A stretch of DNA of 64,000 bases, taken from positions 18,879,806 through 18,943,805 of the forward strand of contig CM069875.1 of the NCBI GenBank assembly GCA_036172665.1, written 5' to 3'. The DNA is from Prosopocoilus inquinatus (taxonomy: Eukaryota; Arthropoda; Insecta; Coleoptera; Lucanidae). A program made the position numbers and the translations under genes. Shown here piece after piece: positions 16,166-63,881 of this stretch. The notes under the pieces were generated by a model. That model made no database searches and was not told the origin of the DNA. It was given only the letters and a program-made list of their open reading frames with translations. Numbering within the stretch: position 1 is the first letter of the stretch; each line of letters starts with the position of its first letter.

Positions 16166-17387
16166 TATAGGGTATTCATGGGAAGCCGCTACAATAGCTA
16201 ACTTTCTTATTTGTATTCTTATGAAGTAACTAAATTAGGAAAGTTTTAGGACCTTTCTTCCTCGGTTGTACGGTACTTTCAAAGAAACAAATAACAATCA
16301 GGTTTTCGAGATTTTCAATTGTTTTCAACTTTTTTAAATAGAATGTTAGGATTTTTATTATCGCATCGCGTTCAGGATGTCAAATTAATTATGTCTCTAA
16401 AATATCATCTCCCAAAGCGTACTATTTTAGAAATGATTTAGTAACAATGTCTTGGTGTTCACGGGAAAAATGGTTACAATAGCTAACTTTTTTATTTGAA
16501 GTTTTACGAAGTAGCTTAAATCAGGAAAGTTTCAGGACCTTCCCTGCTCGATTTTTATGGTACCTCTGAGAAACAAATGACTGTCAGATTTTCGAGATTT
16601 TCGAAATTTTCAGTTGTTTTCAACTTTTTTAAATGGAACATTATATTTTTTATTAGCGTATCGTGTTCAGGATGTCAAATTAAGTATTGCTCTAAAATAC
16701 TCCCCTCCTAAGTCTACTATTTTATAAATTATTTAGTAAATAATGGTATTAGACATTTTTGCATGTCGCGCTTTCAACATTTGGACCCAAGGGTTTTTAG
16801 TTTGAACTAAATTTAAACAAGTTTTGAATCATGACAGTTCACAAAGGTCTGTCAGTTTGAACACACTTCCTTTATTATCTTGTTTCAACGCGCACCATAT
16901 TGTATTCGTGAATTAAAAGACTATCGTAATGATACACTTCTTCCGGAGAATATCAAGACTGAATTATTTATGAAATATTCTGTCTTGAGATATTATTTCA
17001 CAAGCATACTTAATTTGACATCCTGAATGCGATTTCGTGATAAAAAACGTAATGTTAAAGGTGCTGAAACTTTTCTAATATAAGTTACTTCGTGAAACTT
17101 CAAATAAAAAAGTTAGCTATTGTAGCCATTTTGATTTGGGATATAATATTTTAGAGACATCATTAATTTGACATCCTGAACGCGATACAATGATAAAAAA
17201 CCTAACATTCCATTTAAAAAAGTTGAAAACAATTGAAAATCTCGAAAACCTGATTGTCATTTGGTTTTCCGAAAGCACCATAAAAACGAGGAAGAGAAGT
17301 CCTAAAACTTTTCTAATTTAAGTTATTTTATAAAAATACAAATAAGAGAGTTAGCTATTGTAGCGAATTCCCATGAACACCCTGTAT
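16166..17387. mobile_element. Large foldback element with four copies of one repeat
   Basis: Left terminus TATAGGGTATTCATGGGAA and right terminus TTCCCATGAACACCCTGTA are inverted. Inside, a unit of about 280 bp occurs four times. Two copies are direct from the left (16170-16448 and 16449-16740). Two are inverted towards the right (about 16975-17135, with an internal deletion, and 17136-17385). Landmarks in each are GCTACAATAGCTAACTTTC, TTTTCAACTTTTTTAAAT and TTCAGGATGTCAAATTAA. It has no coding capacity. Its transcript would fold into a long hairpin. Confidence 0.8.
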
Positions 17388-18298: not shown

Positions 18299-18302
18299 TT
18301 AT
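18299..18302. repeat. Target-site duplication TTAT, left
   Basis: TTAT immediately before the left LTR is repeated immediately after the right LTR at 24857-24860. A 4-bp duplication is characteristic of Ty3/gypsy integration. Confidence 0.85.
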
Positions 18303-18629
18303 TGTTACATTTCTAGGGTTTAATTAATTTATTTAAACGAATAAAACACTCGATAAAAACTTAACCGTAATTTAATAAAGCTTAAAAACTAATTTATTTG
18401 TAATAATTTATTTTCACACTAAAAATCTAACTTCGCCGTTCGCTGTTAGAATTCGACTGACTGGTGAGTCAACTCCGGGCGATTTTATATCTACTGCTGG
18501 CGTCTGGAAGTCTCTATGCTGGAAGATTCTAGTTTGCTCGATATAGGCCCCGAACGCGTGACGGCCGATGACACATCGAAGCGGACCGACTTCTTGACGC
18601 CTTGCGCTAAGTCAGGTTGGCTCGCCACA
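18303..18629 (-). repeat. 3' LTR of the gypsy element
   Basis: 327 bp, matching 24530-24856 except for one base. The last six codons of the gag-pol frame, including its stop, are encoded in this LTR (18612-18629), with the LTR beginning exactly at a codon boundary. Confidence 0.95.
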
Positions 18630-21600
18630 CTGCCCCCTTCTTAGAAACGTTTCGTCTCGAAATGTTCCTGGTGATAGTCTTGAAGGAGGGTGTCGGAATC
18701 TACATGCTGGCCCATTCTTGCAACTTCCCGCCTGGAAGAAGTAACAGTCTACGGTTTTGCTGTTGCTGACTGTTGCCTGTGGGTGGTGGCTGCAGACTAG
18801 GACTTCAATTCCCGTTCTGTGGAAGATGACTTCCAGCATGCTTCGAATTACTCTCCAGTCTAGTCCGTCCAATCCGCAGCCCAATTTGGGGATGGCTAAC
18901 TTCATCTGATGGTTCTCTATTAGCTGTCTCCTCAGGCTATATAGGGCTCTCCACATAGTCACATAGTCAGGTTTACCGCTTGATGTCTTCTTAGTGACTA
19001 AATAATGCACGTGGCGCCTCCGATCTGCCGTCGAATCAATGATCTGCAAGCTCTTGCCTACCACGGGATGCTGTCTTCGTAGCTCCTCGATTTGGCCAAA
19101 TTTCTTCCTAAACACCTGAGCGATTCCTTTGGACATTTTCAGGTCTTCTGCTACGCAGTGGGCCAGACTGTACTCCAGTGGCACTTTAAAGAGATCTTGT
19201 TGCTTCTCCGTGGTCACTCCAAACCGTGCCTTGCTTCCTTCGGCGTGATGAGACATGAAGGTTTCGAAGTTCACTTCGGAAACTTGCGCCCTTTGTACTG
19301 TCCCTTCATCTGCTTCTCCATGGTAAGGGGCTATCCGGTTGAAGTGGATTACTTTGGGTTTGCCATGGGGGACCTTCTTGATGCGGTAAACGACGTCGTT
19401 GATCCGTTTCATCACTTTGTAAGGACCTTCCCAAGAGGTCTGTAATTTTTGGGAGAGGCCTCGACGTCTTTGGGGGTTATAAAGCCAGACCAGTGCTCCA
19501 GGTTGGTATCCCCCGTGTTGAGCGTTGATGTCATAGTGCTCCTTCATCCGATCGCTGGCCGTCTGTATATTGTGACGCACTTGGTTGTGGATATCATCCA
19601 TTTTCCTGCGTAATTTGCTCACGTAATCTTCGTCGGCAGAGACTTCGCCAGGCTTCACACCAAACTTCAGGTCGCAGGGCAGTCTCGGCTCTCGCCCGAA
19701 TACCACTTTCGCGGGAGTCTGCCCTGTTGTCTCATGAACAGATGAGCGGTATGCCATTAGAAACAGGGGAATGTACGTGTCCCAGTCCCTCTGATGATCG
19801 GAAACGACCTTGGACAAATGTCGGTTGATGGTTCTATTGAACCTTTCCACCATTCCGTCCGACTGTGGGTGGAGTGCAGTTGTTCTAGTTTTTCGTACGC
19901 CGAGCAGAGTACACACGTTCTTGAACAAGGCCGATTCAAAGTTCCTTCCTTGGTCTGAATGCAGTTCCATAGGTGCACCATACCGACTGATCCATTCCCT
20001 GACAAGGACTTCCGCAGTAGTGACTGCCTCTTGGTTAGGTAGGGCGTAAGCTTCAACCCACTTGCTAAAGTAGTCCATTACCACGACGATGTACTTGTTT
20101 CCACCATTCGTTTCTGGAAACGGGCCGGCTACATCGATGGCAACTCTCTCAAAAGGACTTCCAACGTTGTACTGTCTCATGGGAGCCTTACCCCGCCTGT
20201 GGGGACCGTTACTGGCTGCGCAGACTGTACACTTTCTGCACCAATCCTTCACGTCTTCCTTGCAGTTCACCCAGTAAAATCTTTCGCGCACCTTCTCCAT
20301 AGTCTTCTTAACTCCCAGATGCCCTCCCGAAGTTCCATCGTGAAGTTCCCTCAGAACTTCTGGCACCCTATTCTTGGGGATCAGTAACTGTGTCTTCTGT
20401 TCCATGCCTTCCTGATTCTCTATGCTTCGTCTCAGAAGACCACGATCCAACACTATGGAGTCCCACTGCGCCCAGTATGATTTTACGGACGGTGCACATG
20501 GTGCTACCTCTTCCCAGGTAGGCCTCGCGTCCCTGCTTTTCCATTCTAGCACTAATTTCAAATCCGGGTCGTTCTCCTGGTCTCTTCGCAGTTCTTCGCC
20601 TTGCCATTTGTCATCAACAATGGCTGTCCTCGCAGTCGTGGCTATTTTCTCGTCCAAACGACTACAGTGCTTACAGTCTTCGGCACAGGGTCTTCTCGAC
20701 AGAGCATCGGCATTTCGATGGCTAGTTCCTGCCCGATGCTGAATTTCAAAATCGTACTCCTGAAGTCGTTCGATCCATCGTGCAACTTGCCCTTCTGGGT
20801 TCTTGAAACGGAGAAGCCATTTTAGAGCGGCGTGGTCGGTCCTCAGCAGGAAGCGTCTACCATACAAGTACTTGTAGAAGTGTTCTATCGTTTTTACGAC
20901 GGCTAGCAATTCCCTTCTTGTGACGCAATAGTTTCGTTCCGGCTTTGATAGGACTTTACTGAAGTAGCCGATCACCTTCTCTTGCCCCTCTTGTATCTGG
21001 GAGAGTACGCCACCAATCCCAACGTTGCTAGCATCTGTGTCCACGACGAACTTGCCTTCCGGGAGAGGATAACTCAGAATAGGAGCACTAACCAAGTACT
21101 GCTTTAGTTGTTCAAAGCCAATTTGACACTGTTGGTCCCATTCAAATGGACGACCTTCTTCAGTGAGTTTTGTTAACGGCTTAGCAATGTCTGCAAATCC
21201 AGGAACGTAGCGCCGATAGTAAGTGCACAGGCCAAGGAAACTCCTTATTTGGTGTTTATTTCTGGGAGTTGGCCAGTCTTTCACCACCTGAATCTTCACA
21301 GGGTCCACGGCGATTCCATTTCCATTAACAATGTGCCCCAGGTAATTCACTTCCTTCTGGAACAGGTGACACTTCTTGAGGCTAAGCTTTAGTCCAGCTC
21401 CGCGAAGCCGCTGGAACACTCCTTCCAGGTTCCTTAGGTGGTCGTCGAACGTCTTTCCCACGACAATTATGTCGTCAAGGTACACCATGCACGTTGTCCA
21501 GGACAGACCTTTCAGAACCGTCTCCATTAACCTCTCGAATGTCGCTGGGGCATTACATAATCCGAATGGCATCACTGTGAACTGCCACAGACCCATACCA

Positions 21601-24428
21601 ATGGAAAACGCCGTCTTTTCTCGATCTTCGGGCGCCAGCTCCACTTGCCAATATCCACTCTTTAAGTCCAAAGTTGAGAAGATCTTTGAGCCGGCCAGGG
21701 TGTCCAGGGTATCATCAATCCGTGGCAAGGGATAGCTGTCCTTCTTGGTGACATTATTGAGTAACCGGTAGTCTACACAGAACCTGGTGGACCCATCCTT
21801 CTTCTTCACAAGCACTACTGGTGACGCCCACGGGCTGCTTGATGGTTCTATTACATTATCCTTTTCCATCTCGCGAATAATGCGTTCCGCTTCCTCACGC
21901 TTCGCCAACGGTAATCGCCTTGGAGCTTGACGGATAGGTCTTTCTTCTCCAGTCTCTATTTTGTGTTTCACGACATCAGTTCTTCCCTTGGATCCATTTT
22001 CTACCTCAAATACATCTTGATAGCGGCCGATCAGATTCTTTGCTTTTGTCTTCTGGTCTGCAGTCAATTCCTGGGCTGTTGACATAACCATTTCCCATAA
22101 TTTCTTTGGGACTTTCGCTTCTGGCACGTTTGTTTCAAGTTGCCGGGAGATGGAGGACACCATGGTGCAGCTTCCCAAGATTGTTCCTTTCTTGATATTG
22201 ACGGAGAAACAATTGACGTTCATCAGGCGGACAGGTACTTCCTTCTTCGCCATCAACAACATTTTTCCAACGAGGACTCCTCTTCCAATCCTTTGATCAT
22301 CAGTATTAGGTTCAACCATAATGACTTGCCCATCTTGAAAAACACCGTCCAGTTTTGCGTCGACGATAACCTCAGTCCTGCTGGGTAATACAACGTCTTC
22401 AGCGAGGACTACTCGAGCGGCCACGTCCCCTCGTTGATGAAGAACCAACTCCTCATTATTGACCGCCATTACGCCACGCTTTAAGTCCAATTGGAACCCG
22501 TGGGCACACATGACGTCCATGCCCAAAATTGCCTCGTCCTCTATATCTGCCACCAGTGCACGGTGTTTTATTGGAGTTGAACCAATGGTGATGATAACCT
22601 CTACTTCACCGTGGACAGTTGCTGATGTTCCAGTTGCAGTTTTCAGTCTCCACTTGGTCGGCTCGGTGCGTCCAGATGACTTAATGACGTCGGGTCTTAG
22701 GATGGTCTTCGTCGCACCCGTATCCAACAACATGGTGTGAGGAATGTCATCAATGGTGACATCCACGAAGACACTGCTGGTTAACTGCCGTAGGAATATT
22801 ACTTGGTTGGCTTTCGTCTTTGGGGGCCTTTGAATACGGGTCGACGTTTGCCCCTCTGCACCGACCCGGCTTAGTTTAACTGTGGCTTCCTTGGATCCTG
22901 TCTGGGCTTTGGACATCGCCTGCGAACATGTCCTTCCTCCTGGCAATTCCAGCGGCTTCTTCTGCTTGAAGACCTGTTCCACAATGCGGCGAACATCCTC
23001 GGCGGTGGCATACTCTCTGGCTCGCTCCTTTATAGTAGATCCCACCTTGGCGTTAGCGGATTCTTCCTCTTCTTCCTCTTGGAAGTCCATAGCCGCTCGC
23101 ACCTTGACATGCCCTCTTGAGACTCGTCTCGCTGCTTCAAATTCCAAGGCATAAGCTAATGCGTTCTTGGACGTCTTCGGATGGGTCATTCTCAATGCCT
23201 GCTGGTTGTCTGGGTCACGGATTCCATCTATGAAGGTCTGCACCGTCAAACATTTGAGGAATTCAACAGGAGCTGTGGGATATGCCAACTGGGCCAGACG
23301 CGCAACGTCTGCTTCGAATTCCTGAAGACTTTCTCCGGATTTCTGACAGCGATTCCTCAACTGTGCATGGTATACCTCGGTCAGATGGGCCTGTCCGTAA
23401 CGCATTTCCATCCTATTCACCAGCTTGTCGAAGTCTTCTTGTTCCTCTGGCGGCATCGTCTGTAGCACATCGATAGCATCCCCTCTCAAGGCCACAATTA
23501 ACGAAGTGGCTTTTTCGCTGGCCGTCCATCTGTTTGCCTTTGCTGCTGCTTCGAACTGTTTGAAGTAGTTGGGCCAAGAAGACTTTCCATCGAACGTTGG
23601 TGGTTTTATTTTTAATTTCGAATTTTCTGCTGGTCCTTCCGCAATTCGGGTTTCATTATTATTATTTTCTAGTACTTCTACTGGTGGCTGATCCCCGAAC
23701 ACTCGCAACCCCGCCATGATTTGTTCCAGATTTTTGATTTTGTTATCCTGCTGGAATATTATTTCTTCCACATTTTCTCGCAGGTTTCTTGTTTCTTCCG
23801 ATATTTTTACCACTAGTTTATCTTCGAGTCCTTTCGTCTGTTCTAGAAATTCACCCTTCAAATTTCCGGACTGTTCTAGAAGTTTCTCGTCGAAATTTCT
23901 GGATTGCTCTAGAAATTTCTCGTCTAAGTCTCTAGATTGTTCCAACAATTTATTTTGTAATTTGTCGAAATTTCCAGATTGTTCTAGAAGCTTCTCCTCT
24001 AAATTTCTGGATTGTTCTCTAAGCTTCTCTAAATTTCCAGACTGTTCTAGAAACTTCTCGTTCAAATTTCTGGATTGTTCTCGAAGTTCGTCCTTGAAAT
24101 TTCCAGATTGTTCTAGAAACTTCTCGTCCAAATTTCTGGATTGTTCTCGAAGTTCGTCCTTGAAATTTCCAGATTGTTCTCGAAGTTCATCCTTGAAATT
24201 TCTGGATTGTTCTCGAAGTTCATCTTTCAAGATTTTATTAAAATCGACGGGACCAGACGAAATTTCGAAAAGGAACGTCTCTGGATCTTCACCAGCTGTC
24301 AACAAATCGGATCGGAGACGCTGTTGAAGTGCGCCTTTCAAACCACAGGTTTCTAACTCTCGTTCTTCCAATTCTGTTTTTAATTCGGCCACTTTTAAGT
24401 CTTTCAACAACACTTTTCTCGTAGCCAT
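18612..24428 (-). CDS. Gag-Pol polyprotein with SAP, macro and CCCH domains
   Basis: A single 1938-residue frame. Residues 5-45 resemble a SAP motif. About 66-206 are tandem 11-residue repeats (REQSRNFKDEL, LEQSGNLDEKF types), a likely coiled coil. About 275-440 are a retrotransposon Gag region. Protease LLDTGAT is at 567-573. The RT has YLDD at 983-986. RNase H has D1130/D1132, E1173 and D1198. Integrase has an HHCC finger near 1363-1403 and catalytic D1432, D1492 and E1528 (DD35E). After integrase, about 1739-1879 is a macro domain closest in pattern to TARG1/OARD1. It contains SLAHCVAED, YLVTKK (K1813, equivalent to human K84) and LGCGLDGLDW (D1854, equivalent to human D125). At 1895-1913 is a C-x7-C-x5-C-x3-H finger. 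No CCHC knuckle lies between Gag and protease. Reverse transcription and integration are established for the family; any role of the macro domain is inference. Confidence 0.95.
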   Translation of the reverse strand: MATRKVLLKDLKVAELKTELEERELETCGLKGALQQRLRSDLLTAGEDPETFLFEISSGPVDFNKILKDELREQSRNFKDELREQSGNFKDELREQSRNLDEKFLEQSGNFKDELREQSRNLNEKFLEQSGNLEKLREQSRNLEEKLLEQSGNFDKLQNKLLEQSRDLDEKFLEQSRNFDEKLLEQSGNLKGEFLEQTKGLEDKLVVKISEETRNLRENVEEIIFQQDNKIKNLEQIMAGLRVFGDQPPVEVLENNNNETRIAEGPAENSKLKIKPPTFDGKSSWPNYFKQFEAAAKANRWTASEKATSLIVALRGDAIDVLQTMPPEEQEDFDKLVNRMEMRYGQAHLTEVYHAQLRNRCQKSGESLQEFEADVARLAQLAYPTAPVEFLKCLTVQTFIDGIRDPDNQQALRMTHPKTSKNALAYALEFEAARRVSRGHVKVRAAMDFQEEEEEESANAKVGSTIKERAREYATAEDVRRIVEQVFKQKKPLELPGGRTCSQAMSKAQTGSKEATVKLSRVGAEGQTSTRIQRPPKTKANQVIFLRQLTSSVFVDVTIDDIPHTMLLDTGATKTILRPDVIKSSGRTEPTKWRLKTATGTSATVHGEVEVIITIGSTPIKHRALVADIEDEAILGMDVMCAHGFQLDLKRGVMAVNNEELVLHQRGDVAARVVLAEDVVLPSRTEVIVDAKLDGVFQDGQVIMVEPNTDDQRIGRGVLVGKMLLMAKKEVPVRLMNVNCFSVNIKKGTILGSCTMVSSISRQLETNVPEAKVPKKLWEMVMSTAQELTADQKTKAKNLIGRYQDVFEVENGSKGRTDVVKHKIETGEERPIRQAPRRLPLAKREEAERIIREMEKDNVIEPSSSPWASPVVLVKKKDGSTRFCVDYRLLNNVTKKDSYPLPRIDDTLDTLAGSKIFSTLDLKSGYWQVELAPEDREKTAFSIGMGLWQFTVMPFGLCNAPATFERLMETVLKGLSWTTCMVYLDDIIVVGKTFDDHLRNLEGVFQRLRGAGLKLSLKKCHLFQKEVNYLGHIVNGNGIAVDPVKIQVVKDWPTPRNKHQIRSFLGLCTYYRRYVPGFADIAKPLTKLTEEGRPFEWDQQCQIGFEQLKQYLVSAPILSYPLPEGKFVVDTDASNVGIGGVLSQIQEGQEKVIGYFSKVLSKPERNYCVTRRELLAVVKTIEHFYKYLYGRRFLLRTDHAALKWLLRFKNPEGQVARWIERLQEYDFEIQHRAGTSHRNADALSRRPCAEDCKHCSRLDEKIATTARTAIVDDKWQGEELRRDQENDPDLKLVLEWKSRDARPTWEEVAPCAPSVKSYWAQWDSIVLDRGLLRRSIENQEGMEQKTQLLIPKNRVPEVLRELHDGTSGGHLGVKKTMEKVRERFYWVNCKEDVKDWCRKCTVCAASNGPHRRGKAPMRQYNVGSPFERVAIDVAGPFPETNGGNKYIVVVMDYFSKWVEAYALPNQEAVTTAEVLVREWISRYGAPMELHSDQGRNFESALFKNVCTLLGVRKTRTTALHPQSDGMVERFNRTINRHLSKVVSDHQRDWDTYIPLFLMAYRSSVHETTGQTPAKVVFGREPRLPCDLKFGVKPGEVSADEDYVSKLRRKMDDIHNQVRHNIQTASDRMKEHYDINAQHGGYQPGALVWLYNPQRRRGLSQKLQTSWEGPYKVMKRINDVVYRIKKVPHGKPKVIHFNRIAPYHGEADEGTVQRAQVSEVNFETFMSHHAEGSKARFGVTTEKQQDLFKVPLEYSLAHCVAEDLKMSKGIAQVFRKKFGQIEELRRQHPVVGKSLQIIDSTADRRRHVHYLVTKKTSSGKPDYVTMWRALYSLRRQLIENHQMKLAIPKLGCGLDGLDWRVIRSMLEVIFHRTGIEVLVCSHHPQATVSNSKTVDCYFFQAGSCKNGPACRFRHPPSRLSPGTFRDETFLRRGQCGEPT
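18630..18642 (-). promoter_or_regulatory. Polypurine tract (plus-strand primer site)
   Basis: On the minus strand AAGAAGGGGGCAG directly precedes the TGTGGCG start of the 3' LTR. It is also coding sequence here, since the gag-pol frame runs through it. Confidence 0.85.
23811..24233 (-). repeat. 33-bp tandem repeats encoding an 11-residue coiled-coil repeat
   Basis: About a dozen imperfect 33-bp units lie within the gag part of the gypsy frame. Each encodes an EQS-containing hendecad. Length is conserved in multiples of three apart from slightly shorter or longer units near residues 133-165, so the frame is kept. Confidence 0.9.
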
Positions 24429-24511: not shown

Positions 24512-24528
24512 CCCCACACCTGACACCA
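24512..24528 (-). promoter_or_regulatory. Primer-binding site
   Basis: Minus-strand TGGTGTCAGGTGTGGGG lies one base inside the 5' LTR. The complement ends in CCA and resembles the 3' end of tRNA-Leu (TGACACCA). The tRNA assignment is from memory of leucine tRNAs and should be checked. Confidence 0.75.
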
Positions 24529-24529
24529 C

Positions 24530-24856
24530 TGTTACATTTCTAGGGTTTAATTAATTTATTTAAACGAATAAAACACTCGATAAAAACTTAACCGTAATTT
24601 AATAAAGCTTAAAAACTAATTTATTTGTAATAATTTATTTTCACACCAAAAATCTAACTTCGCCGTTCGCTGTTAGAATTCGACTGACTGGTGAGTCAAC
24701 TCCGGGCGATTTTATATCTACTGCTGGCGTCTGGAAGTCTCTATGCTGGAAGATTCTAGTTTGCTCGATATAGGCCCCGAACGCGTGACGGCCGATGACA
24801 CATCGAAGCGGACCGACTTCTTGACGCCTTGCGCTAAGTCAGGTTGGCTCGCCACA
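24530..24856 (-). repeat. 5' LTR of the gypsy element
   Basis: 327-bp partner of 18303-18629. On the minus strand it holds, in order, the promoter, an AATAAA-rich R/U5 region and the AACA end next to the primer-binding site. Confidence 0.95.
24683..24716 (-). promoter_or_regulatory. LTR core promoter: TATA box and TCAGT initiator
   Basis: On the minus strand TATAAAA (24716-24710) lies 31 bp upstream of the A of TCAGT (24687-24683), the arthropod initiator consensus. The same pair occurs in the 3' LTR at 18456-18489. Spacing and sequence are both near ideal, so transcription probably starts at about 24685. Confidence 0.75.
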
Positions 24857-24860
24857 TTAT
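24857..24860. repeat. Target-site duplication TTAT, right
   Basis: Matches 18299-18302. Confidence 0.85.
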
Positions 24861-47750: not shown

Positions 47751-50700
47751 ATGTTTGATTGCAATCAGTGTGGCAAACAATTTACGCGAATCGATAATAT
47801 GAATCGTCATTTGCGTACGTCATGCCAGGGAAAACGTTTGAAATTAGACGAAATTGCCGGACCGTCCAAAGTTGTTGACCAGGTGAACGTTATGAAATGT
47901 GATGTGTGTGAATTATACCTTAGCAGAAAGTGTTTCTCAGCACATTTGCGGAATAATTCACATAAAAGTAATGCTTTTGTGGTCGTCGATAACGGCGTGG
48001 AGAAGATAGCTGGTGCATTCGGAGACAAAATCGTAACGTACCGAGTCTATCTCTTAGATTCTAAAGAAAGTTCTGAGATAAAATCTTTTAACACCAAGAA
48101 TAAAATAACTTGTTTTGGAACTGATATATACAATATATATCGTGATTTTGTAAACGAAATACATGTAAAAATGTCGGAATTTCAGGAGCGAGATTCAGGT
48201 AAAAAAAAAATAATAGGTGCAATCGTTTAGAATAAAACTTAAAGTTGCAAGTATTGTTACAGGATGGACTTTGTGCAGAATTTTATATATGGAAGTCAAC
48301 ATTAATAAATACAATCCACTGAAAGCATCCAGCTTCATGCCATTACCGTCTTCAATAAGTGCGAAGAAAGCTGTCATAAATGTTAGAAATAACGACAACG
48401 CTTGCTTTGCCTGGGCGATAACGTCAGCGATGTGTCAACCGACAGATCTTCCTCAAAGGATGTCTTCGTATCCTCATTATAACACAGTAGCGGATTTCAC
48501 TGACCTAGAATTTCCACTGAAAGTTTGTGACGTGAAGAAATTTGAATGCAAGAACAATATTTCTGTAAATGTCTACGGACTAGGTTCCCATTATAATGGT
48601 AAGGTTACGGTTGATGAAGTTGTAGGACCGTTACATTTTACTAAAAATAGAAAAAACATTCATATAAACTTATTATTAATTGATGACAACAACGGAAATA
48701 CTCACTATTGTTGGATTAAAAATTTATCAGGTTTAGTGTCAAAACAGACTTCACGGTCACGAGAAATATATTTGTAAAGGATGTTTAGTGTATTTTCCAT
48801 GTATTGAAAAATTGCAACGACACGAGAGGGAAGACTGTAAAGTTATCAAAAGTTTTACCATCGACAGAGTTAAAAATAAATAAGTATGGTGAATCTTTGC
48901 CAGAGAATATATTACAATTTGAAAATTTTGAAAAACAGTTAAAACTTCCTTTTGTTATATATGCCGATTTCGAAGCATTGCTAAAACCACTGGACAGAGT
49001 AGAACCAAATCCAGATAAATCTGTCACTGTTAAGTGTTATGAACACGAACATCATTCATTTGCATATTACATTAAGTGCAGTTTCAATGCTAATTTGTCA
49101 ATGTTAAAGTTATATCGCGGAGAGAATGCCGCCACTGAGTTTATAAAATGGTTAGAAAAAGATATTAAAGAAATTTACGATAAATATTTAAGTAAAATTG
49201 AGCCGATGACTGATTTAACACGAGAAGAAAAAGAGGCATACGACCGTGCAACGTGTCATATTTGTGAAAAACCAATATTAGATGTTAAGGAGAAGGTGCG
49301 TGATCACGAACATTTATCGGGAGCGTTTAGAGGTGCTGCTCATTCTGTGTGCAACATTAATTTTAAAATACCAACATTTATTCTAGTGTTTTTTTCATAA
49401 TCTTTCTAATTATGACAGTCACTTGTTTGTAAAGACAATGGCATTAGATGGTGAAGATGTGTACGTGATCGCACAAAATAAGGAAAAATATATATCCTTT
49501 TCGAAATTAATACACGTGGGGGATAAGACAGACTGTAAAGGTAAAAAGCGTAAAGTATATTTCAAAATCAGATTTGTAGATTCTTTTCGTTTCATGCAAT
49601 CGTCTTTAGAGAAATTAAGCTCATACTTGGAAAATTGGCAATGTAGGGAAATTAGAAAATATTTTAACGATGAGGAGATGTTTAAATTAATACGTCAAAA
49701 AGGAATTTTCCCGTATTGTTTTATTGACTCATTCATGAAATTAGATTTTCCCACTTTACCTTCTAAGAAAGAGTTTTATGATGTGCTGTATGATGAACAC
49801 GTAAGTGATGAAGATTATGAGAGAGCACAGCGCGTTTGGAATTTATTTAACTGTAAAACTATGGGTGATTACAGTGATGTATACGTAACATCTGATGTTT
49901 TACTGTCGGCAGACGTATTTGAAAATTTCAGAGACCTTTGTATTGATAATTACAAACTAGATCCTTGCCATTTTTTCACCGCTCCAGGATTAAGTTGGGA
50001 TGCAATGTTAAGAATGACAAAAATTAAATTAGAGCTACTGCAAGATGTTGATATGCTACATTTTTTTAGAATGGGTATACGCGATGGAGTGAGTATGTGC
50101 ACTAAAAGAATCGAAAACGCTAATAATAAATTTGTGCATGGTTTTGACTGACAACTAAATATTTACTAAAATTTTGTGCAAATCGTTCTTGATTGCAGTG
50201 AAAACCTCGAGCAGCCTCTGGACAGTTGTTTCAGCCTTGCTTGGGGCTTCTTCAGCAGAGACGTAGCTCGACATTCCCACTGCAGACCAAAAACGACTTG
50301 CCCAATTTATTCGCAATTGCGATGTAAGAATGATGAACAGATAAAATAGCGACATCTTACTATCGCTTTTTGACCTGACATTGCAATCAAGAACGATTTG
50401 CACAAAATTTTTCTAAAACTTTCATTATGCTTTGACAGCAAGCATGGCCGCCTTGCATGGGGGACTTATTAGGAGCAAATCCCGCTTCAATTTGTCTATC
50501 CTACTGCAATGTCAGGTCAAAAAGCGATAGTAAGATGTCGCTATTTTATCTGTTCATCATTCTTACATCGCAATTGCGAATAAATTGGGCAAGTCGTTTT
50601 TGGTCTACAGTGGAAATGTCGAGCTACGTCTCTGCTGAAGAAGCTCCAAGCAGGGCTGAAACAGCTGTCCAGAGGCTGCTCGAGGTTTTCACTGCAATCA

Positions 50701-60457: not shown

Positions 60458-61720
60458 TTACATCAACTGACGGACAATTTTGGTGAGAGGTGAATAAGAG
60501 AACGCTTTGTCATGCAGCATTAAACAGTAAGCAATAGTATCAGCTTTAATATTTTCTTTAGTTGTAAACTCAATTCTTATTTCTACTGCACTTTTATGCA
60601 TTACATCTCTCTGAAAAGTGCAGTCGATTCCTATTAATGGGCAACTAGCTAATCCTTTTGGATTAAACCAGGGTTGACTGCTTTCACGATGATAATAATT
60701 TTCCTGAAATCTAGAATACATGTCGTATATAACGGCGTATTTGTTATTTTCAATATCAATTTCAATTTTGTCGTACGGATAGCGTTCGCCATTTAGAAAT
60801 ACCGTTAATGATTTTAACTTAACGTCATCAAACAGACTCATGTTTGCATCGACGACACCCTTTCGCTTAGTTTGAAAACCGATGATTATGTACCTTGGCG
60901 TTTCCAACTGCGGAGCCGTTTTTACTGTCCAAGAATGACTTGTCGTAGTTGGGAGTGACGGATACTCGTGCAACTCCCAGCTTCTGAAAGGAATTTGTAT
61001 TTCAACATCTCTGTCTGTCACTCTCGTTAAAGCCAATTGCTCACGTAGTCCACCAGAAATATGAGGTATACTCCATACAATTTTGTCAATTATTAATTTA
61101 ATCTTTTCCGTCTTGTTTGTTTCCACAACTGCATCAACGTCATCATTTGCTCTGATCAATACTAATTCTTGCCTCATATTCAAGACGATCTTTTTATAAT
61201 CTTCCCCAAAACCTAATAATGTCTTTAAAGGTACACTTGCTGAGAAATATCCCTTAACGTTGAGTATATCGCTCATTTTATCATTCTCCTGGATCCATCC
61301 TGCATTTTCCAATTTTACTGTATCGTTGCGAGTAAAAGAAAAATATCCTTTCATTGTTGATGTTATGCCAACATTTCTTACCGAATCCACCTATACTCCG
61401 TTCAGAAGATATCTAATCTCGCTAAACATATAAGCTACCGGATTATTTATCAATTGTGCCGTCGCACTGTGTTTAGTATTATCACTAACCAAACGCAGTC
61501 TTCCCTCTATGTACAAATAACTTTCGCAAGGGAAGGTGTAATTGTCGATCTCAGGTACGGTGATACTCACATCATCGTTGTTACCAAATGATGAACTGAA
61601 TGGTAAGTGTGAATGGAACTCCATACTGGTTATTGAAGTGTCCAATTTAATTTTATCAGTTACTCCCAAAATATCCATGTCGTTCTGTTTAGATGATGAT
61701 TGCCTTATGATGGTGTTCAC
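60458..61720 (-). pseudogene. Polinton major capsid protein, one nonsense codon
   Basis: The frame runs 420 codons from ATG at 61720 with a single TAG at 61391-61393 after residue 109. Downstream landmarks are GITSTMKGYFSFTR, IPFRSWELHEYPSL, YAVIYDMYSRFQENYY and AYCLMLHDKAFSYSPLTKIV. These fit the double-jelly-roll capsid protein of Polintons, which builds the icosahedral shell. Apart from the stop no lesion is visible. It could still be translated as two pieces if downstream initiation occurs (a GTG follows immediately), but a functional capsomer is unlikely. Confidence 0.85.
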
Positions 61721-62688: not shown

Positions 62689-63096
62689 TTAACTTGTAAA
62701 GGACTTTAAAAACTGTAGACATAAGTGTCCACAATTTTGTGTATTTTGTTTCTGATACCTTTCATAATTATAATTAATAACTCCCAATCCGTTCGACAAA
62801 AGATATTTCTCTACTTCAACTGGAGGTCGTAGATCTCCATAGCTGTCAAAATATTTTACGATTCCTCCTCTCTTATAATATGCCACCCAATGCGTTCCTT
62901 CACCAGAATCGCTATCTAAATTCACTACTCCACTTTCATGCTTCCATATCTTTTTAGGTAAAGTATCTCTCATAAACACACCTCGAAAGGAAGGTAATTT
63001 CCATATTTTAGCATATTTCAGTATGTCAATGTTAGTCAACGGTCGCCGAGGCAAATATTTCAGTTTTTTGGATTGGATCGTAAATATAACCCACAC
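62689..63096 (-). CDS. Polinton adenain-like cysteine protease
   Basis: Catalytic pattern of the adenovirus-protease (C5) family: His in GEGTHWVAYY (H69), Asp in KYFDSYGDLR (D84), and Gln/Cys in NTQNCGHLCLQFL (Q120, C122). The frame also has the typical start LPRRPLTNIDI and FRGVFMRDTLP. The listed start at 63096 overlaps the upstream PLA2-protein frame by 37 bp. A shorter start cannot be excluded, since no in-frame ATG precedes LPRRPL. The role is maturation cleavage of capsid proteins. All active-site residues are present. Confidence 0.85.
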   Translation of the reverse strand: MWVIFTIQSKKLKYLPRRPLTNIDILKYAKIWKLPSFRGVFMRDTLPKKIWKHESGVVNLDSDSGEGTHWVAYYKRGGIVKYFDSYGDLRPPVEVEKYLLSNGLGVINYNYERYQKQNTQNCGHLCLQFLKSFTS

Positions 63097-63881
63097 CCGG
63101 TTTTGTAAGGTTTTATATAGAATCCGCTTCTCACTGCTTTTGTTTCCATAGCGCGATTATGTCGCTCTGCTTCTTTCAGTTGCTCTTTCGCAGCTTTTGC
63201 ATCGTTTACCGCCTTAGCAATTGCAGCTGCACCGCCGCCGAGCGATCCTATTGCGCCCAAAGCCGCAAATAATGGAATTAAAGGTAAAAACCCTCCTCTC
63301 TTAGGAATTGGTATCACTCTTTGACGTGGAGGTCTTATTTTCTTGTGGTCCTTCTTTAAAACAGCCTGCGCCAATTTCACATTTTCTAACAGACTCTGGT
63401 TACCATTAAGTGAAATTGCATGTTGTGCTTTCCTTACAGTTTGTCGAAATGATAATTTACCACCACGCTTCTTCCGTTTACTACGTTTTATCTTCACTCC
63501 GTTTCCCATTCCAAGCTTTGTCTTAGCTTTCATTAAGGCGGTTACAGATAACGCAGATGCTTTTTCACCAAATTCCGCTTCTGTACTCTTCACTCTTTTC
63601 ACTGCCGCTTGATACAATTTTTTATCTGCTTCGTGACGTTTTTCTAAATCGCTACTTACAGAATATGCGATATCGTGTTGCTTGCACGCCTCATCCAACG
63701 CATTCACACCTCTGTCTCCTCTTTTAAGTCGAACGTCTAATTTTGTGCCCGGACCGCAGTAATTGTAACCTGGTAAGTGTAACTCTACTGGTAGTTTATT
63801 AATTCACGTATTAAGTAAACCACGACCTTTTCGTTTTAAGGTACTTCTCGCAGTGTAATCTGTTTTGACACGACGTCGCAT
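63060..63881 (-). pseudogene. PLA2-domain core/minor capsid protein, one nonsense codon
   Basis: From ATG at 63881 (basic start MRRRVKTDY) the frame has one TGA at 63804-63806. It then continues with LPGYNYCGPGTKLDV (calcium-loop-like) and DEACKQHDIAYS, whose His-Asp is the phospholipase A2 catalytic pair. After that come a lysine/arginine-rich segment (KIKRSKRKKRGGK), a hydrophobic glycine-rich stretch (FLPLIPLFAALGAIGSLGGG) and a GFYIKPYKTGCGLYL tail. PLA2 domains help small DNA viruses cross endosomal membranes; the hydrophobic segment recalls adenovirus pVI/pX-like proteins. Downstream ATG at 63707 gives a 215-codon piece lacking the calcium loop. Confidence 0.8.

Follow-up and report, generated by a model that had tools for sequence, protein, structure and literature searches.

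What is a host-type enzyme domain doing at the end of a retrotransposon polyprotein? The question is raised by 64,000 nucleotides of the genome of the beetle Prosopocoilus inquinatus (contig CM069875.1; the whole stretch is the window referred to below), whose minus strand carries a Ty3/gypsy long terminal repeat (LTR) retrotransposon with one frame of 1938 residues, running from 24428 to 18612. An earlier note had read, behind the integrase of this frame, a macro domain like that of human TARG1 (OARD1, C6orf130), a hydrolase of the ALC1-like macrodomain class which removes ADP-ribose from proteins and DNA. The present analysis confirms the domain, finds its type in further gypsy lineages of the same genome, and considers how probable it is that the element uses it against its host.

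The macro domain and its element

When the tail is compared with PDB sequences (phmmer), human TARG1/C6orf130 is matched at E 9e-29 (103.8 bits), with 37% identity over aligned residues, and the macrodomain fold of the tail is nearest to that of TARG1. A family scan alone would overlook the domain, since the general Pfam Macro model reaches 17.5 bits (E 0.004), under its cut-off of 22; of the profile search envisaged in the earlier note, the general model thus fell short of its threshold, whereas the match to TARG1 itself is strong. In the alignment K1813 corresponds to TARG1 K84 and D1854 to D125, as had been read by eye, and far from decaying at random both are invariant, together with G123, in 60/60 aligned sequences, the window included (about ten of the 60 being cellular or viral proteins rather than retroelement sequences). 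Across 14 representative sequences of the window's family, called family A, 34 of 136 columns are invariant, and the family-A subtree of 17 rows spans 6.5 changes per site. Sequence and model establish that a TARG1-type domain, with its fold and catalytic Lys/Asp pair, is fused to the polyprotein, widespread and conserved; judging from the catalytic pair, the conservation and the known reactions of TARG1, ADP-ribosyl hydrolysis would be by far the likeliest activity. The parts of the element are as follows.

24857..24860: TTAT, target-site duplication flanking the element at its 5' end
24530..24856, minus strand: 5' LTR, 327 bp, TG...CA, identical to the 3' LTR at 326/327
24512..24528, minus strand: primer-binding site TGGTGTCAGGTGTGGGG, letters read from the sequence
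18612..24428, minus strand: single gag-pol-macro-CCCH reading frame
24309..24407, minus strand: SAP motif, residues 8-40 (PF02037, E 1.3e-5)
22509..22766, minus strand: aspartic protease, residues 555-640 (PF13650/PF13975)
21327..21809, minus strand: reverse transcriptase, residues 874-1034 (PF00078, E 1.8e-37)
20754..21140, minus strand: RNase H, residues 1097-1225 (PF17917/PF17919)
19875..20381, minus strand: integrase zinc-binding domain and core, residues 1350-1518 (PF17921, PF00665)
19326..19427, minus strand: integrase C-terminal domain, residues 1668-1701 (PF22938)
18792..19214, minus strand: TARG1/OARD1-type macro domain, residues 1739-1879
18990..18992, minus strand: K1813 codon
18867..18869, minus strand: D1854 codon
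18684..18758, minus strand: CCCH zinc finger, residues 1891-1915, C-x7-C-x5-C-x3-H (PF00642, 27.1 bits, cut-off 20.5; CPSF4, E 1.1e-8)
18630..18642, minus strand: polypurine tract AAGAAGGGGGCAG, which the frame crosses and translates as an LRRGQ motif
18303..18629, minus strand: 3' LTR, with the last codons of the frame and its stop within the first 18 nt
18299..18302: TTAT, target-site duplication flanking the element at its 3' end

The Ty3/gypsy domain order protease, reverse transcriptase, RNase H, integrase is present (Pfam), as are the hallmarks of the group, namely the LTR pair, the polypurine tract, the short target duplication and the primer-binding site, which we take to be tRNA-Leu-like. 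The element is of a young, many-copy gypsy type, and its apparent youth, noticed earlier, agrees with LTRs that differ at 1/327 positions and are flanked by TTAT. The mapping of residues 1739-1879 to 19214-18792 is correct, and the frame after integrase is indeed unbroken; that the domain follows "directly" is nearly so, the integrase C-terminal domain ending at 1701 and a linker of about 37 residues intervening. Because the frame crosses the polypurine tract and stops in the 3' LTR, the macro tail is part of the element. This extension of the frame, the CCCH finger and the N-terminal SAP motif are additions to the first reading. Among the 51 family-A proteins obtained in the searches, 40 have the CCCH finger and 35 the motif RG[QA][CM] encoded at the polypurine tract, the rest having shortened or different ends.

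The window polyprotein has no CCHC zinc knuckle, and such a knuckle occurs in five of 38 related polyproteins (P0001-P0038), all of Molorchus (P0022, P0023, P0025, P0026 and P0027). The CCCH finger as a strict substitute for the Gag knuckle was rejected, since these five carry both. In Gag, a run of 33-nt repeats at 23827-24228 encodes units of 11 residues built around EQSRN/EQSGN, which might form a coiled coil.

Lineages within the genome and relatives elsewhere

The tail, first described from a single copy, recurs throughout the assembly (650 Mb, 173 contigs) and in other species. Searched against the genome, it gave 150 scored copies of 1474 candidates, all at 99-100% identity; stops occur in 4 of the 150 and 31 lie in open frames of at least 1800 residues, the intact ones being over-represented since the best-scoring copies were scored. 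With a fly OARD1 protein as query (150 scored of 1300 candidates), elements other than the window's family ranked first. Twenty of these matches, chosen to span identity classes, were read; in 19 of the 20 stretches retroelement sequence stands in frame beside the macro domain, and the twenty fall into five sets.

Lineage A (the window's family; L117): macro domain after integrase, then CCCH finger
Lineage B (L113, L122; resembles P0040): macro domain after integrase, acidic tail
Lineage C (L099-L107, L109, L110): macro domain after protease
Lineage D (L108, L112, L115 and the decayed L116, assigned by its similarity to L112): macro domain after protease
Lineage E (L111, L114, L118): macro domain after protease

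Pfam annotation gives the same two arrangements. In lineage B, L122 reads reverse transcriptase, RNase H, integrase, macro domain, the last matching TARG1 at E 3e-41. Larger pieces of lineage C (L119, L089) hold protease, macro domain and reverse transcriptase in one frame; lineage D shows knuckle, protease and macro domain in copy L120 and macro domain then reverse transcriptase in copy L124; and L121 of lineage E has a protease stretch, a stop in this copy, and then macro domain, reverse transcriptase, RNase H and integrase. Within a single genome, gypsy lineages thus carry the TARG1-type domain at two places in pol, and the reverse transcriptases of these lineages (A, B, C/D and E) are 44-65% identical to one another. 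K84, G123 and D125 are kept in 21/21 of their macro sequences (L108 and L118 read by eye), and in L105 Gln replaces the His of AHC. In DNA the lineage-C elements L089 and L119 form a mosaic, 97-98% identical in reverse transcriptase, 66-74% in the macro region and 82-88% in protease, as if segments had been exchanged.

The codon-level constraint that the earlier note proposed to look for is present in lineages C and D, where the ratio of nonsynonymous to synonymous change (dN/dS, Nei-Gojobori) is 0.14-0.15 in two pairs between subfamilies C1 and C2 and 0.19-0.27 in five diverged pairs within lineage D, which shows purifying selection; between close pairs, which have few changes, values range widely, from 0.21 to 1.70. 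In the family to which the window copy belongs the same check is uninformative, and protein conservation across species alone suggests constraint in lineage A.

That conservation is seen in genera which we take to be beetles and one leafhopper. Searching with the tail in its polyprotein context returned 41 proteins (27 Aromia, 7 Molorchus, 7 unnamed), and the tail alone returned 18, including Gonioctena, Leptinotarsa, Pyrocoelia and the fly OARD1 proteins; a profile search gave 2144 matches, and among the matches listed (120) are Brassicogethes and the leafhopper Macrosteles. The Macrosteles case, P0119, is a predicted protein of 177 residues which is placed in the clade and known as protein alone. 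Identity to the window is 74-80% in integrase, 47-64% in protease, and 37-39% in gag for the two cases where gag aligned. A distant gypsy element, P0041, has a reverse transcriptase 28% identical, a TARG1-like C-terminus and a long branch.

Origin and known counterparts

A cellular TARG1 gene would be the natural source of such a domain, by capture. For the trees, 171 rows were thinned to 112 by dropping near-copies (Aromia, Molorchus, Drosophila) and some short rows, and human TARG1 was added; smaller trees of 57 and 51 rows were picked by hand, with P0041 excluded from both. The 17 family-A tails form one clade (112 rows: support 99 in the Shimodaira-Hasegawa-like approximate likelihood ratio test, SH-aLRT; 57 rows: support 100/99, the bootstrap there not settled). 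In the 112-row tree this clade stands beside insect TARG1 proteins with moderate support (87, unstarred), and in the 57- and 51-row trees it makes up one side of the midpoint-rooted tree. By the approximately unbiased (AU) test, neither a single clade of all retroelement rows (p-AU 0.216) nor a grouping of A with B (p-AU 0.30) or with C/D (p-AU 0.591) is rejected in the 51-row tree, and P0040 with A gives p-AU 0.284 in the 57-row tree. The macro trees are therefore compatible with single or repeated capture, and do not demonstrate several independent captures from a host; with the domain at different positions, it must have been relocated or inserted anew at least once. No donor of the family-A domain was found in the three trees, and the host's own TARG1 was not found in the genome search with fly OARD1.

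LTR elements that have captured a macro domain are already known. Fish epsilon-like endogenous retroviruses carry macro domains as additional open reading frames, according to a passage of PMC4977317 citing Basta et al. 2009, and among the open-paper matches listed this was the only paper to join macro domain and LTR element. As far as that description goes, these are vertebrate retroviruses with separate frames, whereas here the domain is fused to pol in Ty3/gypsy. A TARG1-class domain fused to pol, the CCCH companion, the frame over the polypurine tract and the two pol positions were not found among the open-paper matches listed. Human TARG1 itself is described in PMC7050489 as a minimal macrodomain that has no extension at either terminus, in contrast to the window domain, which lies after integrase and before a CCCH finger; in view of this fusion and extension the domain is named TARG1-type and not a TARG1 gene.

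Viruses associated with arthropods also carry macro domains, yet these are RNA or DNA viruses and not LTR elements. The best match in a viral structure library is Kadipiro virus VP8 (40% identity), and an Armadillidium iridescent virus protein has 34%; most of the 50 matches listed there are 14-29% identical and include phages, rubella virus and a coronavirus, for which kinship with TARG1 is not shown. P0039, a virus-like polyprotein with methyltransferase, helicase and RNA-dependent RNA polymerase domains (Pfam), has a macro domain at residues 755-896, 46% identical to the window's over the matched part. TARG1-like macro domains of 29-42% identity also occur at 80 IMG/VR loci (L001-L080; the scan confirmed 89 relatives), which are not used as support.

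Elsewhere, the window holds a DNA polymerase B fragment (49423-50148, plus strand), a double-jelly-roll capsid-like protein (60461-61390, minus strand, E 4.7e-91) and a phospholipase-A2-like protein (63063-63707, minus strand), genes which are presumably Polinton/adintovirus-like. At 16300-16739 there is a direct repeat of 145 nt, 82% identical, with a spacing of 295.

What the enzyme may do

The reading that we favour, with moderate confidence, is that the element-borne TARG1-type hydrolase counters host ADP-ribosylation. A Ty3/gypsy family would have built a mono-ADP-ribosyl hydrolase of this type into its polyprotein; made with Gag-Pol, the enzyme would enter the particle and reverse the ADP-ribosylation, by host transferases (PARP1 or PARP12/ZAP-like enzymes), of element proteins, of the ends of complementary DNA (cDNA) or RNA, or of chromatin close by, whereby reverse transcription or integration would stay unblocked. 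The particle route and the host opponents are the parts that we infer. A PARP search of the genome gave six candidates, with five matches at four loci. One locus encodes a catalytic domain resembling that of PARP1 (the human protein is matched at E 2e-59), and two are candidate host genes nearest PARP12 and ZAP/PARP13 (E 2.3e-17 and E 1e-7), whose PARP catalytic domains lie at G000:C2:71727145-71727531 and G000:C9:4463897-4464238; the fourth locus has stops. The PARP1-like and PARP12/ZAP-like loci are possible opponents of the elements. The presence of TARG1-type domains in other gypsy lineages, some elsewhere in pol, hints that these elements have to reverse an ADP-ribosylation response of the host, and an anti-PARP role draws indirect support from those lineages, the second position, the dN/dS of 0.14-0.27 and the PARP12/ZAP-like domains. 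According to PMC4245714, Tribolium has PARP12-like proteins, TARG1 turns up only occasionally among invertebrates, and many viruses carry TARG1-like domains, few of which keep the full set of TARG1 residues. In parp-1-null flies, as excerpted from PMC7712786, significant changes were seen in eight mobile elements, five rising and three falling; three of the eight are LTR elements of the gypsy superfamily, springer rising most, and ten further elements, nine of them gypsy, rose short of the authors' significance criteria.

Several observations weigh against this role. TARG1 S35 is replaced by Ala in the window copy, as in the fly OARD1 proteins (Ala in 55, Ser in 3 and a gap in 2 of the 60 aligned). 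These 60 are not independent, 29 coming from Aromia and mostly being near-copies. The macro domain evolves faster than the reverse transcriptase (identity to the window is 51-61% for the former and 78-85% for the latter), and the uninformative dN/dS of the window family includes a value of 1.69 on 7 differences between window and L117. In the same fly excerpts three of eight elements fell, the nine extra gypsy rises were non-significant and an indirect effect was allowed. The loss of macrodomain residues in insect-restricted alphaviruses, which a passage of PMC7729036 links to mosquitoes without antiviral PARPs, cuts both ways, as it predicts a need for a macrodomain only where antiviral PARPs exist.

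The enzyme might instead serve housekeeping, much as dUTPase does in retroviruses, where it is likewise a captured small enzyme of variable pol position, though of different chemistry. Its work, in particle or nucleus, would then be to take ADP-ribose off nucleic-acid ends or from O-acyl-ADP-ribose, independently of any defence pathway, and sections of PMC7050489 do give phosphate-linked ADP-ribose at nucleic-acid ends and O-acyl-ADP-ribose as TARG1 substrates. With PARP12/ZAP-like domains in the genome defence fits somewhat better, and we regard pure housekeeping as unlikely.

Slightly less likely still is integration targeting, in which the integrase-fused domain would act like a chromodomain and steer the element to ADP-ribosylated (damaged or PARP-active) chromatin. 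Chromoviruses are Ty3/gypsy elements with a C-terminal chromodomain, an extra host-type domain after integrase, and in lineages A and B the macro domain follows the integrase C-terminal domain at just that place. Yet no chromodomain was found among the 24 Pfam families matching the window polyprotein up to E 1, the macro domain is of catalytic type with an invariant hydrolytic Lys/Asp pair that a mere reader would not need, and lineages C, D and E carry it between protease and reverse transcriptase. With the two positions taken together, a particle-borne enzyme fits better than a module that guides integrase. That the tail is a functionless passenger, a gene piece retained by chance, may agree with the sub-threshold Pfam score and with window-family codons that show no constraint on too few changes, but is highly improbable given catalytic residues invariant in 60/60, purifying selection in lineages C and D, and TARG1-type domains in several reverse transcriptase lineages.

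Returning to an enzyme that counters host ADP-ribosylation, a wider and distinctly tentative proposal is that insect gypsy elements are in an arms race with an unrecognised ADP-ribosylation restriction (PARP12/ZAP-like and/or PARP1), in which several lineages may have separately installed TARG1-type erasers in pol, of the sort that some arthropod viruses carry; few of these viral domains match TARG1 closely. Antiviral ADP-ribosylation has been studied mainly in vertebrates. If the reading is true, abundant elements that keep an apparently intact TARG1-type domain at two positions would suggest that ADP-ribosylation hinders retrotransposition in insects, with host PARP1 and PARP12/ZAP-like genes as named candidates and the TARG1-type domain as the enzyme to assay. 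That several gypsy lineages within a single genome carry the same host-type enzyme also makes a good case for the study of domain gain by retroelements.
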